A stretch of DNA of 64,000 bases from Cenococcum geophilum 1.58 (taxonomy: Eukaryota > Ascomycota > Dothideomycetes > Gloniales > Gloniaceae), in assembly GCA_001692895.1 (NCBI GenBank), contig KV748219.1, positions 992,001-1,056,000 on the forward strand. Direction: 5' to 3'. The stretch's first letter is position 1. Every line of letters starts with the position of its first letter. Shown here piece after piece: positions 9,445 through 18,083 of this stretch. The notes beneath the pieces were generated by a model. The model saw nothing but the letters and a program-made list of their open reading frames with translations. It did not search any database and was not told the origin of the DNA. Made by a program: the position numbers and the translations under genes.

Positions 9445-9815
9445 TGTTACGAAGTAAGTATAAGCGACGGTAATATATAGCGAAGTAGATATTATTAAGC
9501 TATATATATAAACTGTGTAATAAGGTTAAGACGTTGCGTAAGGAAAAAAGGTAGGAAAACGGGAAGAAAAGGGCATATATTGTTAACTTAGTTGCTTAGT
9601 TAATATATACATAGGCAGAATAGGGTTTAGGTTATAGTCCTAGCAGAACTTAGTAGAATTTAGTAGAACTTGGCAGAATATAGCAGAATGTCGTAAATTA
9701 CCGTTAGATTGCCATTAGATTGCCATTAGATTGCCATTTCGCAGTTAGTCTTTAATTGCTAAGTTAGTAGAAACAGGTAGACGTGTATAAGGTGTTACGG
9801 GGGTGTCCTGTAATA
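9445..9815 (-). repeat. 5' LTR of gypsy B
   Basis: 371 bp paired with 3855-4222. It carries one more 12-bp GATTGCCATTAG-type unit than its partner (about 9700-9735). The sequence immediately to the right (from 9816) belongs to a different gypsy element on the other strand. Confidence 0.88.
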
Positions 9816-11526
9816 TAATAGATACTAAGCTAAACTACTATATCTATAATAAAGAAATGCTAGCTATTATCTCTAGCTTTTAGCACTAGTGTATATAGCT
9901 AAAGGGGACCCCTAAGCCAATTAAGGTAGTTTTAGATTATAAGGCCCTAGAATACTTTATAATAACTAAGGCCCTTACGGCCTAGTAGGCACGCTAGGTG
10001 GATACCCTATCTTAGTTTAACTTCTTAATTATATATAGACTAAGCGCTATAAACCGTGCGGACGCTCTTATAAGATATAAATAAGACCTAAATAACTAGA
10101 TGGTTGCGAAGATCTTATTATAGACCTAGATACTACTATAATTAGAATACCTTAACCCCTAGATATAGGCAGAACTAAGTACGGACTCCTTAGGCGCCGA
10201 GATATATCCTATTAACTCCTTTAAACTCAACCTTATTAATAAACTACTATAGGCTAACTAAACGCCCCCCTCTCTATAGGAGTACCGTAAAAAGGTAAAG
10301 AATATTACTAGCCTATAGTCCCTTAAAAACGGACTACTTAAGCACTAGGAATAACTAGTAGTAGCTAAGGAATAAAACTTATAGACCTAGCTTATTGCCA
10401 AAGCTTATGCCTAGGTCTCTACAGCCTACCCTAGAAAAAAATAAGACCTATAAGATTATTAGCGACCGCTACTACTAGCCCGGAATAGTTATAAATATTA
10501 ACCGCTATATACAGAACTGTAATAACTGCTATAAATCTATAAGTCTATAAGATAAGACCCTAAGACTATTAAAACCACTTCTAATACTAGAACGCCCCTA
10601 GTAGTATATCTTTATAGACTTTTATAAACTACCTACGGACTATAATAGATATAATATAGTTATAATCCTAGTTAACCACTTTAGCAAGCGCCCATTCTTA
10701 ATCCCCTATTATAAGAATATTAATGCTAAAGAGGCGGCCCAACTATATATCTACTATATCTACCGAATTTACGGACCACTAAATACTATTATATCCAATT
10801 ATAGGCCGTAATTTATTTTAGCTTTCTAGAATAAGTTTACCTAGATTTTAGGCATTAAGCTAAAGCTTTCTATAGTATATTACCCCTAAATAGATAGTTA
10901 GACGGAAATTATAAATTAATACTTAGACTAGAGACTTTAGCCCTTTATTAACTACTTCTAAGATAACTAGGCTAAACTATTACCCCTAATAGACTACGCC
11001 CAAGCGACCCTACCTTATAATTTTATAGGATTTGCCCCTATCTAGCTAGAAATGGGCTACTTACCCTATATAAGCTTTAACTAGGAAAGACTAAAAAAAC
11101 CCCAAACTATACGCGAAAAACTATCTTATAAGGAAGCCTAGTAGTACACCAAGCGCTTAAAAGAAGCCTAGATGGTAGCCTATACAAATCTAAAAAAGGC
11201 TTAAAAATTAATATAATAGTAGGCAAATAAGCATAGGCAAGAGCCTAACTTTGCTATAGGAAATATAGTCTGGGTTATAATAAAGAACTAGAAGACGAAA
11301 CGACCTAGCTATAAGCTAGACTATTAGATGGCAGGACTATATAAGGTTCTTAAAAATATAGGTAACGCGTATAAAGTAAAGCTCCTAAATTTAATTAAAG
11401 TTTACCCTATTTTCTCTCTAAATAAACTACGGAAAGCTATAAACAACCTATTACCTAGATAAAAGAATAAACCTCCCTTGCCGATTTAAGTTAATAGTGA
11501 CGATAAATAGGAAATTAAAGAAATAC
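9816..11526 (+). pseudogene. RNase H-integrase remnant of gypsy C
   Basis: Readable in one main frame: RNase H with Y-N-K-E-M-L-A-I-I (about 9845), L-E-Y-F-I-T-T-K-A-L-T-A (about 9945), Q-A-R-W-V-D and A-D-A-L-I-R-Y-K (about 9985-10080). Integrase follows from about 10450, ending with K-V-K-L-L-N-L-I-K-V-Y-P-I-F-S-L (about 11375-11420). The coding order matches the pol 3' half of fungal gypsy elements. It is broken by dozens of RIP-type breaks. Confidence 0.85.
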
Positions 11527-11759
11527 TGTGGTGGGGTAAAATGGGCCACTACTTAGTGCCTTGGCATTTTCCTGTATATATCGAGCCTTCGGCTTCTCTC
11601 CTTCTCTCGATCAGGACCGACCGGGGAATACATTCTTTCCTTTCTTCTTACTGACTGCTTTCCTACTGATTGATTACGACTGACGACCGACCGACCGACC
11701 GACCGACAGATAGACAGTATTGTGACTTTCCTATCTGAGAGTGGTCGTACCCTCCCACA
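11527..11759 (+). repeat. 5' LTR of element D
   Basis: Shares long identical stretches with 17555-17786, including a TTCTTACTGACTGCTTTCCT block and a (CGAC)n run. One patch of about 20-25 bp (around 11606-11625) differs completely from the partner while both flanks match, which looks like a local conversion or replacement rather than point mutation. Confidence 0.9.
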
Positions 11760-12169
11760 TATTTTATGGCATTCCACGTGGGGACGACGGTAAGCTCTTT
11801 GGATTAGAAGTCTGGCATTTTATACACAACTATATATATAGGAGATATGCAGGAATATACTACAGCTATAGAAGAACCGCTAGCTGCAGAAGAATAACCA
11901 GCTGCAAAAGAACCGCCAGCTAGACCAACGAGATAGCAGAAGTAGAGAACCAGGCAGTATCGGACAGTAAGGGGAACTAGGTAGTCCCTAAACAGAAAGA
12001 CAGCGGAAAAGACGGATATTAGACTTGACGTATAGGCTAAAGAGTGGCAATAGGAGGCAAAAGAGTGTCACGGAAATTACGAGTAAGGACGTCCAGCGAA
12101 CAGGCGAGCCAATTAGACGACTTTGACCGGTCGGAATTACCCGATATTTCTACTACCCGTGTATGAGTA

Positions 12170-14413
12170 TGGCCAGAGCTTTATTGAAAATGTAGAGATA
12201 ATAGGCAGCCAAGGGCCAATTAATTAGATGGAAACGAGATCTAAGGCATCTGGCGGCAGAGGAAGTTAGTGCTGCCCTTTAGGAACAGAAGAGAGAATAC
12301 TAGCCAAGGTTGTAAGTACACGAGATTAGATCTGCCCTTAAAGGCTTTCTATTCTGGCTTAGCTTTATCTTCTTTCGAGTTATCCGGATTGTGTTAGCGG
12401 CGGCTGCAGAGGCGTTCTATGAAGAAGTAGATATAGGCAGAAGCGTAAGGCTTAGCAGTACCCTACCGTATAGAATAACGGCAGGTTAAAATAGACGGAC
12501 ATATTAAGACCCAGTGGCCGTAGATAAAGACACCGTATTCTCTTAGGAAGACCAACCTCTAGGCGTTAAAAAGCAGCCAGAAGGAAGCGAAGCCTATACT
12601 TCTTTTGCTGAGTATAAACTAATACTAGGACAGCTATCTAGGACACTATTACCTTAGGCGGCAATGTAAGCAGACCTACCGTAGCGTTCACTCGTGATAC
12701 CTAGGGCCGATAACCCCTAGCAGATGAAGGATAGGAGCCGTAAGGACCACCTGCAAGCTCCTAAGGAAGCGCTAGATGTACGTAACCAGCGGTCGACGGC
12801 TTAAGACAAGGTCTACGTTATGGTCCTGCCTATGCCAGCCCTAGGAACTGTTGGAACTCCGTACTTTACAGGACAGGACATGTTACAGTTTATCGAGCAG
12901 TACGAGCGACTATGCGTCCGACACCACGTAATAAGTAAGGAGAAGCACTAGGGCCTTCCGGAGTACTGCGATTACTGGATAGGGATATGAATCCGAAGCT
13001 TGCCTGAATTTATAGCTAGTAATTGGACGGAGCTTATAAGAAAGCTTAGGGCAGAATACCGAGGAAGTGACCGCTTTTGTGAAATGGAGACGGTAGAATT
13101 CTTGGAGGCCTATGTACTATAGTGTAGGAGCAGCCTACCTAGCGTGCGCGAGTACTGTAGGCAGTTTACACTAATCTCCTAAAAGGCTACCGAAGCAGGC
13201 AACCTAGAGAACGGTTAGCAAGGATACTGGTTTATAAAAGGACTTCCGCTTAAATATTAAAGACACGCCATGGCCAAAACAGGAGCTGATCTAGATAGAC
13301 AAGAGTCCTTTAACTTCTATCAGTTACTAAGAGCCGTAGAAGATAGACTTAGTTTATATAAGGGCGCAGATCGTCTATTAAAAATGGACCCCAAGGAGCA
13401 GAGCCTTTGTTAGCTAGTTAAGCAGTTCTATAATTAGCAGCCAGTTATAAACAAAGATGCTACCCTTTAACTACCTGCGATCTTTCAGCCAAATAAAACA
13501 GCCGACGCCCGTCAAGCTAGCTAGAAAACGGACCTAGTTAGACCAGGTGTACACGGAGGAGCTCTAATGCAGTAGCAGTTACCCGCCATAGATTAAGCTG
13601 TAGTTTAAGGCCCAGTATAAGGATACAGCCCAGCACCAGGACACGAAGACTGGCAGAGCAGTGCCCAAGCTCCCTTTGCTCTGCAAGACTGTCGATATCC
13701 GCAAGATTCTACTGCCTTTAGACGGCCGTAATGGGACGCACGGGGTCAGTAAGGTACGCGAGGACAAGGCCGGTGGACCTGTTTTGGATGCGGAGGAAGT
13801 CACCGTTTCACCAAGTACAAATGCTAAGGGCTTAAGGATCTTATTCAGTAAGGGCTTGTACATCTATCTGATTAAAGAAGACTAGTAGCTGGGACGCGCG
13901 AACGACCTAGACCTGAACTACCGTGGCTCGGCAATAAAGGACGACTAAAAGGTATTAAGAACTGGCTCCGTACGTACTAAAGAGCAGACCTAGACAGACC
14001 AAGGAAAGAACAGACGCAGCAGCGGGCCTTCCATAACGGAGCAGCGCTAAAGATTAGTGACGAGAAAAGTATAAACTAGGGGGACTACTATCAAAATCGC
14101 ATAACCTTTAGAGACAGCAGGACAGCCACTAAGCCGTAGGAGAATAATGTATAACCAGGAGATTACATACAGATTAGGTCACAGCCTATAAAAAAGACAG
14201 CTAAAGCTAGGGAGGACTACTATTAGAATCGTCCGACCCTCGGAGACGGTTATTGGAGACGGACGCTTAACCAGCAGGCGCCGCAGCAGGCTCCGTAATA
14301 GGCTCCGCCGAGGGGTAGGACGTTTAACTAGGGGACAATCAAGTTATAAGGTGGGGGAGGGGACGTAGGTAACGGCCGTATAAAAGATTTCTATTTGTTT
14401 ACTTATTTACTGT
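12170..14413 (+). pseudogene. gag remnant of element D
   Basis: Gypsy-type gag. Readable pieces include T-G-Q-D-M-L-Q-F-I-E-Q-Y-E-R-L (about 12870-12910), L-R-A-E-Y-R-G-S-D (about 13045) and F-I-K-G-L-P-L-K-Y (about 13230), the usual capsid-domain signature. A zinc-knuckle-like C-F-G-C-G-G-S-H-R-F follows at about 13780-13815. The tail is rich in Q-A-P (about 14270-14310) and glycine. The start is uncertain. No pol frame follows, unlike complete gypsy elements where protease and RT are expected next. It is broken, with roughly ten or more RIP-type breaks. Confidence 0.75.
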
Positions 14414-14520
14414 AATTTCCTAAAGCTCCTTGTTTACTTTCTTAATTATAACACATTAGTCGCGACGACCTACTGCAGAGATGTCAGTTTAGCTTACCGC
14501 CTGTTACCGAGCTAATAGCG

Positions 14521-14545
14521 ATTTTCTATCCCGGGGATAGAAAAT
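14521..14545. repeat. 25-bp palindrome in element D
   Basis: ATTTTCTATCCC followed by GGGGATAGAAAAT forms a palindrome with 12-bp arms and one central base. It sits about 110 bp after the end of gag, at the start of the non-coding interior. It could be a hairpin in the element's RNA; no role can be read from the sequence. Confidence 0.8.
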
Positions 14546-15026
14546 CCTGATTAGTCCATTCAGCGGTAGAACCGGCAGAACTCTACACCGCCCCTGGAAT
14601 TCGATGATGCGCCAGCTACACAACGAGAACGGCACCAAGAGCCTCAATTGATTGCACGGATATAGAGCCGATTGTATAATGCAGAGCCAGATACAGAGCT
14701 GTACGTAGAGCCTTGATCGAACGACTGTACGGAAGCCTTGGTCTCAAATGACCGCATAGAAGCTACGGTTAGTTAAAGGATCGAATCAAGCCGGAGCCTC
14801 GATATCAGCACGTCGCCGTTACTGGATCGAATCAGTCGAATGTCGTCAAATTAGAGCCTTCAACCGGGCCGACCTTGTTCCTTATTTGAACGATAGCTGA
14901 TTATAGCTCTGCCACTGCCACCCGAATTCAGTACTGCACCGGCTGCATGACGAGAACGGATACCGCGGCAAGGAAGGGACCTGTACAAGGGCAGCAGCAT
15001 GATATTAGAAAACAAGCACCGCGGAA

Positions 15027-15371
15027 ATGGTAAAGCAGTATATAAAGAGGCACTGTAAGACAAGAGAGGACAAGGATGCTCTGCAAGAGATTGTATATAG
15101 GGCACAGCTGACTACCTTAAACCCAAGCTATCCTTATGCGACTAAAGACAGGACCGAGCCGTGTCTGGCTGAGCTAGTGAAGGGCCTTATTAAGGATATA
15201 AGGGAAACAGGAATTGGACGTATAGGATCCAGCGCCTTTTCCTTAGAGATCGTCTTGACGAAAGGACTGTATTATGGACGCAAGGGCAAGGGATATGCGA
15301 CGGAGGTAGTTATAACAGCCGAGAAGCTGCCACCGGATGGCAAAGAGACTGGAAGCAGAAGACAGTCCTAG
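15027..15371 (+). CDS. 114-codon open frame in element D, unidentified
   Basis: An uninterrupted ATG-to-TAG frame of 114 codons lying between the first and second interior repeat blocks of D. The predicted peptide begins M-V-K-Q-Y-I-K-R-H-C-K-T-R and is basic and charged, without membrane segments or cysteine motifs. I do not recognise it. An open frame of this length is notable in a neighbourhood full of stops, but D is only lightly RIP-altered, so chance is possible. The sequence just downstream to about 15510 has similar codon texture, so it may be part of a longer decayed frame. Confidence 0.2.
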   Translation: MVKQYIKRHCKTREDKDALQEIVYRAQLTTLNPSYPYATKDRTEPCLAELVKGLIKDIRETGIGRIGSSAFSLEIVLTKGLYYGRKGKGYATEVVITAEKLPPDGKETGSRRQS

Positions 15372-16596
15372 GAAGGCTCTTAAGCTGGAAGAAGATTAAG
15401 GATATGCGAGCGTACAGCCAGTAACGAGGGCAAAGAAGCAGCTACAAAGGACATCCTAGAAAAGCACCAGGCCTGCAGAAATGGTCTACTGGAAGCTGCC
15501 ATTTATGCTCGCGAAGGAGAAAGTCTTAAGATAGGTCTCTGAATTGGACGTCCGGTGGACACTAAGAGCCTCAATTAACTACGGATGCAGAGCCCCAATC
15601 GATTGACTATATGGATACAAAGCTTTGACAGAACGACTGCACAGCCAGAGTCTTGATCGATTGTCCGCAAAATGGCAGAGCCTACGGATGTAGAGCCTAG
15701 GTCGTACGTGCAGCAGAAGACACCTTGAGTTAAGCCAGAGCCTCAGTCAAATCCTGATCAGCCGAACGCCGCCTGTATAAGTCAAGTCGTTAAATTAGAG
15801 CCTTCGGTCGGGCCGACCTAATACCCTATTTAAACGTCCGTCGATCATACACTGTCACGGTTAGTTGAGTCAGTCACCCGTCGCCGTCAGACGTCTTCGA
15901 TCAGCAGTCAAAGATCCTACAATGGCAGATACGCAGGCATGCGGACACTAGGCCTAATCAGGAAACCAGTACACGGCCGGAAGAACGTCAGAAGCACAGC
16001 CAATTAACGTCTTAGAGCCTTTGCGAGAGCTTCTTCCCTTGGCTGCCCCCCCCTTATTAATCGATTGCTGCCCGTCTCGACGCCCACGGATTGGTTAACC
16101 AGAACGATCTTTCCTGCAGATATAGATACGGAGCTCTACACGGAGTTTCACACGGAGTCGTATATGGACCCTACGGATATGGAGCATACAGGTGCAGAGC
16201 CTTGATTAGACAACAGTACGGCAGCTTAACTGGACGCCTATAGATGCGAAGCCTTGATCGAACGGCAGATGCGGAACCTTGACCGATTGGACGTCTACAC
16301 GGAAGCTTTGATCAACTGTCTACGAATGCAAAGCCCCAGTCGTATATGCAGCAGACACCTTGAGTTAAGCCAGGGCCTCATTAAGTCTGGATTAGCTGAA
16401 CGCCGTCTCCGCATTCAAATCAGGACAATTAGGGCCTTCGACTAGGCCGACTTTCTACCTTAATCGAACGACCGAACGATCAGTGGCAGCACGTCGTCGC
16501 CGACCAATTAGACAAGTCTTCGGCCAGCAGTCAAGGCAGCTATACACGCATACACGCAGACACGGACGCAGAATATGCAATACAGAGCTATTGATG

Positions 16597-16659
16597 CACA
16601 GCCAGATGCACAGCCAGACGCGCAGCTAGACGCACAGCTAGACGCACAGCTAGATGCAG
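16597..16659 (+). repeat. 12-bp minisatellite in element D
   Basis: About five copies of a CACAGC(C/T)AGA(C/T)G unit in tandem, grading into less regular GCAGAGCC-type repeats on both sides. Confidence 0.85.
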
Positions 16660-16794
16660 GGCCTAGTGCAAAGCCACGGGCAGAGCCTTGACTGAGAAGC
16701 TGCGTATGATGCAGACTGATACAGAGCTAGATGCAGAGTTTTGATATTAAATGGCAGCGGAACGATCGAGTCAATCTAGAGCCTCTGCTACCTT

Positions 16795-17385
16795 GATCGA
16801 CTGCCCTGCTGCTACCGCTACTGCTGCCACCGCTACTGCTGCCACTATTCCGTCCGGCTATTTTGTCCCTGCTGTCTCAACCGTCCTAGATTTGTACCGC
16901 TGCTAGGTCTATTTACTGCTGGATCTGCTAGGTCTGTTATGCCGTTCTATACTGCTATTCCGGCCGATCTGTTCTACTGCTGCCGACCAGCTGTCCTACC
17001 GCTGCCACTACTGCTATTGCTATTCCAACTGTCCCGTTCTAGTGTTCCGATTGTTCTACTGCTACCGTTCTTACTGACTGCTACTGACTAACTGCTACTG
17101 ACTGACTGCTACCAACCCTCTGCTGCTACCGAGGTTTCTGCTACTAAAAGTTCTGCTGTTGGATGTCCTACTGCTTACTACACAGACCGAGTTCTTTTAC
17201 CGACTGTTCTATTACTAACCGCTCTACCACTGACCGTTTTGCTTTGTCTTACTGCGCCAACTGTCTGCTTTTTACCATTACTACTACCGTTACTATTACT
17301 GCTGTTACTGCTACTACTGCTGCTACTGCTGCTACTGCTGCTACTGCTATTGTCATTTCTGGTTTGCAGCTATTTTGGTTACCGC
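16795..17385 (+). repeat. CTGCTAC-rich low-complexity tract
   Basis: Degenerate run of CTG, CTA, CCG and ACT triplets, most regular at about 17281-17350 as repeated CTGCTACTG. It ends shortly before the polypurine tract of D. The open frame over its end is a by-product of the triplet repeat. Confidence 0.8.
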
Positions 17386-17554
17386 TAGTAGGAAGGACAC
17401 TGTAGGATAGTTCTATAGGAGGGCTGAGGATGAGGTTACCTGTGTTCTTTTAGGGATATGCTTTCCTTTTCTATTCTGCTTTTGCTATTCTTTTATTTGG
17501 CTATTCTTCTATATTATAGAACGTTAGGGGACAACGTTCTTGGTGGGGGAGGTA

Positions 17555-17786
17555 TGTGGTGGGGTAAAATGGGCCACTACTTAGTGCCTTGGCATTTTCC
17601 TGTATATATTGAGCCTTCGGCTTCTCTCCTTCTCACCACCGCGACGGACTGAGAATACATTCTTTCCTTTCTTCTTACTGACTGCTTTCCTACTGATTGA
17701 TTACGACTGACGACCGACCGACCGACCGACCGACAGACAGACAGCATTGTGACTTTCCTATCTGAGAGTGGTCGTACCCTCCCACA
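17555..17786 (+). repeat. 3' LTR of element D
   Basis: Partner of 11527-11759. It is preceded by the purine-rich GGTGGGGGAGG (about 17541-17551), the expected plus-strand primer site, which fixes the orientation of D. It is followed by the target duplication ATAC and then by the resumed chromodomain frame of C. Confidence 0.9.
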
Positions 17787-18083
17787 ATACTAGCCTGTAA
17801 GCTTGTAAGGGGAACGTTAAAATATTATATTAGTTGGAAAGGGTACAACCTAAACCCTACTTAGTACCCTATATAGAACTTTATAGGTAGTCCCCATAAG
17901 CTTTAGAAATTCTGTAGTTATTACCCTAACAAACCCGGACCCCTAAAGTATCTTAATAAGTAAATAGAGTGCTAAAATAGCGAAGATAATAAGCTGCCTA
18001 TTAAGTATAAAGATAAGAATACCCTATAGACATAATACGAACGTATAAAGCCTAAAGGTAGGCTTTTTTAGAGGGGGGAGTAA
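17787..18083 (+). pseudogene. Chromodomain remnant and polypurine tract of gypsy C
   Basis: Right-hand side of C after the D insertion. The frame reads I-L-A-C-K-L-V-R-G-T-L-K-Y-Y-I-S-W-K-G-Y (about 17791-17850), then F-I-G-S-P-H-K-L and P-N-K-P-G-P-L, a chromodomain with the C-terminal tail usual in fungal gypsy integrases, thought to steer integration to heterochromatin. A purine tract at about 18071-18080 precedes the LTR. The fossil is broken. Confidence 0.8.

Follow-up and report, generated by a model that had tools for sequence, protein, structure and literature searches.

TR-GAG elements of plants (terminal-repeat retrotransposons with a GAG domain), described by Chaparro and colleagues in 2015, reportedly consist of long terminal repeats (LTRs) and one gag frame, lack pol and are presumed to be mobilised in trans. 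They are reportedly short elements, up to about 4 kb. Among other LTR elements, large retrotransposon derivatives (LARDs) lack gag, and the barley family BARE2, which depends on its relative BARE1, has a defective gag but retains pol. The available excerpt on the Arabidopsis element AT5TE33540 describes a 562-amino-acid GAG, a full-length relative and transposition in ddm1 (PMC8704663). By title, the papers found that name TR-GAG concern plants, plus one brown-alga paper citing the original description. No fungal gag-only or TR-GAG family was recognised in the open-access papers searched by titles and abstract beginnings, and none is described in the excerpts of surveys of Coccidioides (PMC5872316), Mycosphaerella (PMC4522978) and Pseudocercospora (PMC13041039); the first reports most Gypsy copies as being without polyprotein domains and the last looked for LARDs and TRIMs (terminal-repeat retrotransposons in miniature), with no occurrence of the word gag in its excerpts. 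Here we describe element D, a 6.26-kb LTR retrotransposon (LTR to LTR, 11527-17786, + strand) in a 64-kb window of the genome of the fungus Cenococcum geophilum 1.58 (window C44:992001-1056000; genome 177.19 Mb, 162 contigs). Coordinates of D are those of the window.

D is very probably a copy of a long-lived, gag-only, non-autonomous, TR-GAG-like family of Ty3/gypsy type that derives from a gag-pol ancestor and is supplied with pol in trans. Because its start signals are shared with an enzyme-bearing relative, the D family is probably a parasite that relies on this relative to spread. Like the TR-GAG elements of plants, D has LTRs, a primer site, a purine tract, a target duplication and one gag frame, lacks pol, and belongs to a multi-copy family in which gag is intact in some copies. 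It differs from them in its fungal host, its decay of the type produced by repeat-induced point mutation (RIP), its 3-kb repetitive interior, its interchangeable capsid halves and its tRNA-Arg(UCU) primer site. D is also longer than the limit of about 4 kb, which we do not treat as decisive, and we call D TR-GAG-like, not a TR-GAG. It resembles LARDs in being an LTR element present in many copies, with a long interior for which no frame is shown, but it keeps gag and thus departs from the LARD definition of no coding capacity. As with BARE2, the family would depend on a relative, yet in the reverse arrangement, with gag kept and pol missing.

The two LTRs, target duplication and purine tract that the initial annotation had given to D were confirmed at 11523-17790 (Table 1). 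The LTR pair aligns with 221 matches, 11 mismatches and 1 gap (95.3%). D is inserted towards the 3′ end of the pol of a different gypsy element, damaged by RIP (9806-11526 and 17787-17921), the match to which ends at about 11528 and picks up again at 17766-17921. The G+C content of D is 48% and that of the flanks 29-34%. Three pol queries gave no match at 11529-17765, and Rfam returned nothing for 11400-17900. A gypsy-type gag with a zinc knuckle and, where pol should be, 3.1 kb of repeats had also been proposed. The gag, the repeats and the absence of pol hold, whereas the knuckle has the spacing CX2CX3HX6C instead of the canonical CX2CX4HX4C, and the interior lies 3′ of the point at which pol is missing.

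That an autonomous relative might share the signals of D had been considered, and we did find a relative that carries pol and has its LTR ends, primer site, purine tract and gag in common with D. In this 10.6-kb copy (C20, locus L041, one of two older gag copies retrieved), the stretch of about 4.5 kb after gag holds protease, reverse transcriptase (RT), RNase H and integrase, which is the Ty3/gypsy order; pol was read with X at stops and the protease was recognised by eye from its DSGA motif. Pfam gave RT_RNaseH at 2.8e-10, over the cut-off, and integrase H2C2 (3.1e-5) and RVT_1 (0.021), both under it. Between the two C20 LTRs (290 bp, 91.4%) there are 25 differences, every one a transition. 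At the start (TGTGGTGG) and the end (TCGTACCCTCCCACA) these LTRs agree with those of D, but not in the middle, which is presumably U3. Leader and purine tract are the same as in D, and the target duplication is ATAT. On the 3′ side of the C20 pol stands DNA matching D at 14323-14447 and 14471-14583. As the pol lies between gag and the first of these matches, the point at which D lacks it falls at about that place (Table 1), with the interior downstream.

Where D has its interior, the relative has a different region of 3 kb, located 3′ of pol, and the two cannot be aligned. The region of the relative has one low-stop frame and was present in 4/4 pol-bearing copies read, which are 85-89% alike (C20:1805713-1808740, L041/L045; three further copies L046-L048). 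It is possibly a third gene of the pol-bearing family; three pieces of it gave no match in Pfam. The idea that the D interior is a decayed form of this region was rejected, the best translated comparison having an E value of 1.2.

The copy search anticipated by the initial annotation returned many D-type copies, and among the matches listed none that was measured or read carries pol. We scored the best 40 of 665 candidates with the LTR and leader (8 of the 40 places retrieved as loci), the best 40 of 2010 with the interior (89 matches; 30 of the 89 rows retrieved), the best 40 of 622 with the 3′ end, the best 150 of 307 with the gag core and the best 150 of 1788 with the relative's RT. D-specific clusters, built from 40 leader, 69 interior and 40 3′-end places with 20 short interior pieces left out, number at least 74 with a merging gap of 12 kb and 77 with one of 6.5 kb, the smaller gap splitting C35 and one C5 element in two. 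In none of the 74-77 clusters does an RT belonging to the lineage of the relative occur on the same strand at a distance of up to 6 kb, as judged against 125 of the 150 RT rows (the remaining 25 being for the most part matches of 22-35%).

The distance from gag to interior is 1.54-1.92 kb in 34 of the 37 places where it could be measured; C35, one of the other three, has a nested insertion. The pol-less layout was read whole in D and C55, from two loci in C35, and for the most part in the decayed copies C84 and C62. The C55 leader holds a 2.9-kb DNA-transposon-like insertion with inverted ends (L039 743-3636), and a 6-kb one, also with inverted ends and DNA-transposon-like, sits at the gag end of C35 (L040 3363-9431; longest frame 98 amino acids). 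The possibility that pol is hidden in these long-spaced copies was rejected, as no pol query matched either locus. Target duplications flank 3/3 pol-less elements read at both ends (D ATAC, C55 ATAG, C35 CTAT). In the near-identical C35 LTR pair, 242 positions match, 2 differ (one of them by an N) and 12 columns are gaps. Judged from the LTR pairs of two pol-less copies (D, C35) and one pol-bearing copy (C20), together with the stop-bearing RTs of the relatives, the pol-less side looks younger than the pol-bearing side.

Results of the gag-core search fall into two layouts. Among the 150 gag places, 57 have an RT within 12 kb downstream, 41 have the D interior or 3′ end, 52 have neither and none has both; the distance from gag core to RT is 3.10-3.16 kb in 51/57 RT-bearing places. 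An RT stands downstream of 0/71 gag places with at least 68% identity to D and of 57/79 below that value. RIP-type decay lowers identity and so confounds this split; the layouts themselves are not confounded, as the decayed C84 and C62 also lack pol and are D-like. When a second capsid type is added (72 of its 150 rows used, the rest being mostly places of the D-type gag search), the count rises to 205 gag places, 58 with an RT, of which one, with the RT 9 kb away, is probably unrelated, and 72 with D features.

These counts bear on the simplest alternative, that D is a plain deletion derivative, or one of many independent internal deletions, with no life of its own. A pol-bearing relative with a common gag, LTR ends and leader does exist, in favour of this alternative. 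The initial annotation had named other copies with pol in the same position as grounds for regarding D as a deletion derivative found once; the relative bears out the first part, but the single occurrence fails with at least 74 places. Moreover, the D interior is absent from 4/4 pol-bearing 3′ regions read, the LTR middle differs in the one relative compared, and no listed gag place has both an RT and D features. We therefore regard this explanation as improbable.

The 18 nt following TATTTTA match the CCA end of a tRNA with a gene at C5:4696691, whose anticodon we read by eye as TCT (Arg), with an intron after the anticodon. ARAGORN called no tRNA in the window, and it did not call this intron-containing gene either. 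The gene (L057, C5:4696550-4696800) also has an apparent insertion of about 45 nt in the D-loop. A second block, 17 nt beyond the first, is complementary to the anticodon arm of the same tRNA after splicing. The two blocks are conserved in 13/13 distinct leaders found by pattern in the retrieved loci, including one from a pol-bearing copy, when C>T and G>A are allowed (18/18 and 13-14/14 positions), and the best match to the second block elsewhere nearby is 9-12/14. The 17-18 nt between the blocks pair poorly (10-11/18) except in the C67 copy, which holds the whole 50-nt tRNA complement and scores 29.1 bits against the Rfam tRNA model (cut-off 29). Self-priming was rejected, because the sequence that follows the LTR and the LTR itself have no complementary stretch of 8 nt or longer.

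The exact two-block pattern has 57 sites in the genome, and both reversed-pattern controls gave 0. The gag described here lies within 8 kb downstream of 57/57 sites (53 within 1.3 kb), the check including 43 of the second-capsid-type rows, and an RT lies at 4; the primer site is thus common to pol-less and pol-bearing elements. No other element family with the exact pattern was seen among the 57 sites. An excerpt on Ty3 and Ty1 describes bipartite primer-binding sites in which the tRNA pairs with two RNA blocks (PMC5371799). The D leader is likewise complementary to its putative primer tRNA in two separate blocks; in Ty1 and Ty3 the primer is the initiator tRNA-Met, whereas the second block of D corresponds to the spliced anticodon arm of tRNA-Arg(UCU).

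Stop-free gag frames were found in C35 (812 amino acids), C58 (870) and C114 (743); the gag core of D itself has six stops. Compared with C35, D gag shows 116 C>T changes, of which 70 precede A, and 79 G>A changes, whereas T>C and A>G number 25 and 29, a substitution pattern of RIP type. Between C35 and C58, the ratio of nonsynonymous to synonymous changes (dN/dS) of gag amounts to 0.26-0.35 when the true frame is used, against 0.82-1.41 for the other frames. From sequence and predicted structure, the gag core is best read as a capsid, because of weak matches, the fold and its place before pol in the relative. In Foldseek, PEG10 capsid C-terminal domains rank 1, 7, 10 and 27 and Arc ranks 30. 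The fold predicted from a single sequence is poor, with a predicted local distance difference test (pLDDT) score of 43.5. In place of the canonical knuckle, D-type copies have CX2CX3HX6C, the relative L041 has the canonical spacing with Tyr for the first Cys, and L042 has that spacing with Cys for the His.

Several results weigh against this account of D. The match to Retrotrans_gag is weak, appearing in 8/14 core members with a best E value of 0.001, and member 1 falls under the cut-off at 0.021. Pfam found no family for the gag pieces of the window and a single unrelated match (0.13) for the whole 812-residue frame, and a profile search of gag against the Protein Data Bank gave 0 matches. 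The AlphaFold model has a mean pLDDT of 62 and is confident only at about residues 110-190. The best Foldseek E value is 1.6, so that the PEG10 and Arc ranks all have E >1, among many unrelated proteins. The interior also has a dN/dS of 0.40-0.88 by frame between C35 and C58, and since this is likewise low, the gag ratios are moderate evidence of selection. RT matches of the relative's lineage with E <1e-40 all carry stops (among the best 150 of 1788), and no present-day source of pol is therefore seen; 75/205 gag places, among the matches listed, fell in neither class.

The capsid occurs as mosaics in three combinations: the D type; an N half of D type joined to a different C half (L003, L008, L050, L051); and a third N half joined to that same different C half (L007). 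L003, L007 and L008 have a D-like LTR and leader (82-87% to D). The L007 place has the D interior and 3′ end, and no listed RT is near L003, L008, L050 or L051. A search with the L007-type gag gave 28/150 rows at 60% or more, with an RT within 12 kb at 1/72 places examined (9 kb away). Ty1 p22, a copy-number-control fragment, is a precedent for capsid acting against the particles of its own element, and D Gag could in the same way act mainly against the helper by poisoning its particles, which would explain a broken helper and variable capsids. The stops in all helper RTs with E <1e-40, the open frames of some D-type gags and the exchange of capsid halves are consistent with this. Yet RIP alone explains the decay of the helper, because the 25 differences between the C20 LTRs are all transitions, and D-type copies have insertion duplications and, in one case, a near-identical LTR pair. 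We give such an antagonistic role about as little credence as simple deletion. Equally improbable is that pol is borrowed from unrelated gypsy elements of this genome with open RT frames, such as those of 1054 and 1396 amino acids at C77 and C134. In its favour, every RT in the lineage of the relative with E <1e-40 among the best 150 of 1788 contains stops. Against it, neither element has DNA in common with D (the only match, 34 bp of C134, falls in D's right flank), and 57/57 exact leader sites precede the gag described here.

Table 1. Features of element D and its insertion site (window coordinates).
Feature	Position	Strand	Remark
Left target-site duplication ATAC	11523-11526	.	Identical ATAC on other side of D
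5′ LTR of D, TGTGG...CCACA, 233 bp	11527-11759	+	
Primer-binding site, 18 nt complementary to tRNA-Arg(UCU) 3′ end including CCA	11767-11784	+	
Second tRNA-complementary block, 14 nt, spliced anticodon arm	11802-11815	+	
Gag frame, start approximate, internal stops in D	12001-14331	+	Stop at 14329-14331
Putative capsid core, N- and C-terminal halves	12799-13440	+	Weak Pfam Retrotrans_gag in 8/14 aligned members
Zinc-knuckle-like motif CX2CX3HX6C	13780-13824	+	
Approximate point of missing pol compared with 10.6-kb relative	14250-14323	+	
Internal purine tract GGTGGGGGAGGGGA, relative has one too	14350-14363	+	
Near-perfect inverted repeat (hairpin) GATTTTCTATCCC/GGGATAGAAAATC, common to D and relative	14512-14554	.	
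Repetitive interior, common to pol-less copies, not alignable to relative	14584-17520	+	Without shown conserved frame
Polypurine tract GGTGGGGGAGG directly 5′ of 3′ LTR	17542-17554	+	
3′ LTR of D, 232 bp	17555-17786	+	
Right target-site duplication ATAC	17787-17790	.	

Within the interior, 15682-15847 and 16320-16482 are 73% alike, and there are arrays of 12, 15 and 9 bp. One of its frames has a dN/dS of 0.40. A captured host gene was considered for the 114-residue open stretch at 15027-15368 and is possible but not supported: Pfam gave no match, and of 30 other loci matching the stretch 18 need two reading frames and 12 one (some of the loci repeat the same copy). Eight of the 11 mismatches of the D LTR pair lie in a single block of about 20 bp (11605-11626, 17633-17653), which is highly variable among copies; outside it the D LTRs are about 99% alike. 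Gene conversion near the transcript start is perhaps the source of this variable block. Both D and C20 have two purine tracts, one after gag (in C20, after pol) and one before the 3′ LTR, as if 3-kb regions had entered between tract and LTR in both families.

A history and a cycle can be proposed from these data. An ancestral gag-pol element related to the 10.6-kb copies would have lost pol from the segment that separates gag from the internal purine tract, perhaps in a single deletion event, and the pol-less lineage would then have diverged, with its own U3, capsid types and 3-kb repetitive interior, and multiplied. The LTR would drive one RNA, both translated into Gag and packaged, and Gag may form particles in which products of the relatives are co-packaged. 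Protease, RT, RNase H and integrase would come in trans from the pol-bearing relatives and recognise the common LTR ends, primer site and purine tract. Minus-strand synthesis would start from tRNA-Arg(UCU) as primer, and integration would leave the 4-bp duplication. The D family may even be the counterpart of a satellite virus, with its own re-assorted capsid, having persisted through RIP-type decay and having outlived or outnumbered a stop-bearing helper, although we hold this to be doubtful.

What is new here is the fungal host, the identified partner, the capsid mosaics and the primer site; mobilisation in trans by the pol-bearing relatives is inferred. Most descriptions of gag-only LTR elements come from plants, and the D family would be a fungal case. 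Its leader is complementary to the tRNA in two blocks that include the spliced anticodon arm, one copy having the whole 50-nt complement. One genome combines a large pol-less family, a pol-bearing relative with the same cis signals, half-exchanged capsids and RIP as a mutational marker, which bears on why gag-only elements keep gag instead of losing everything.

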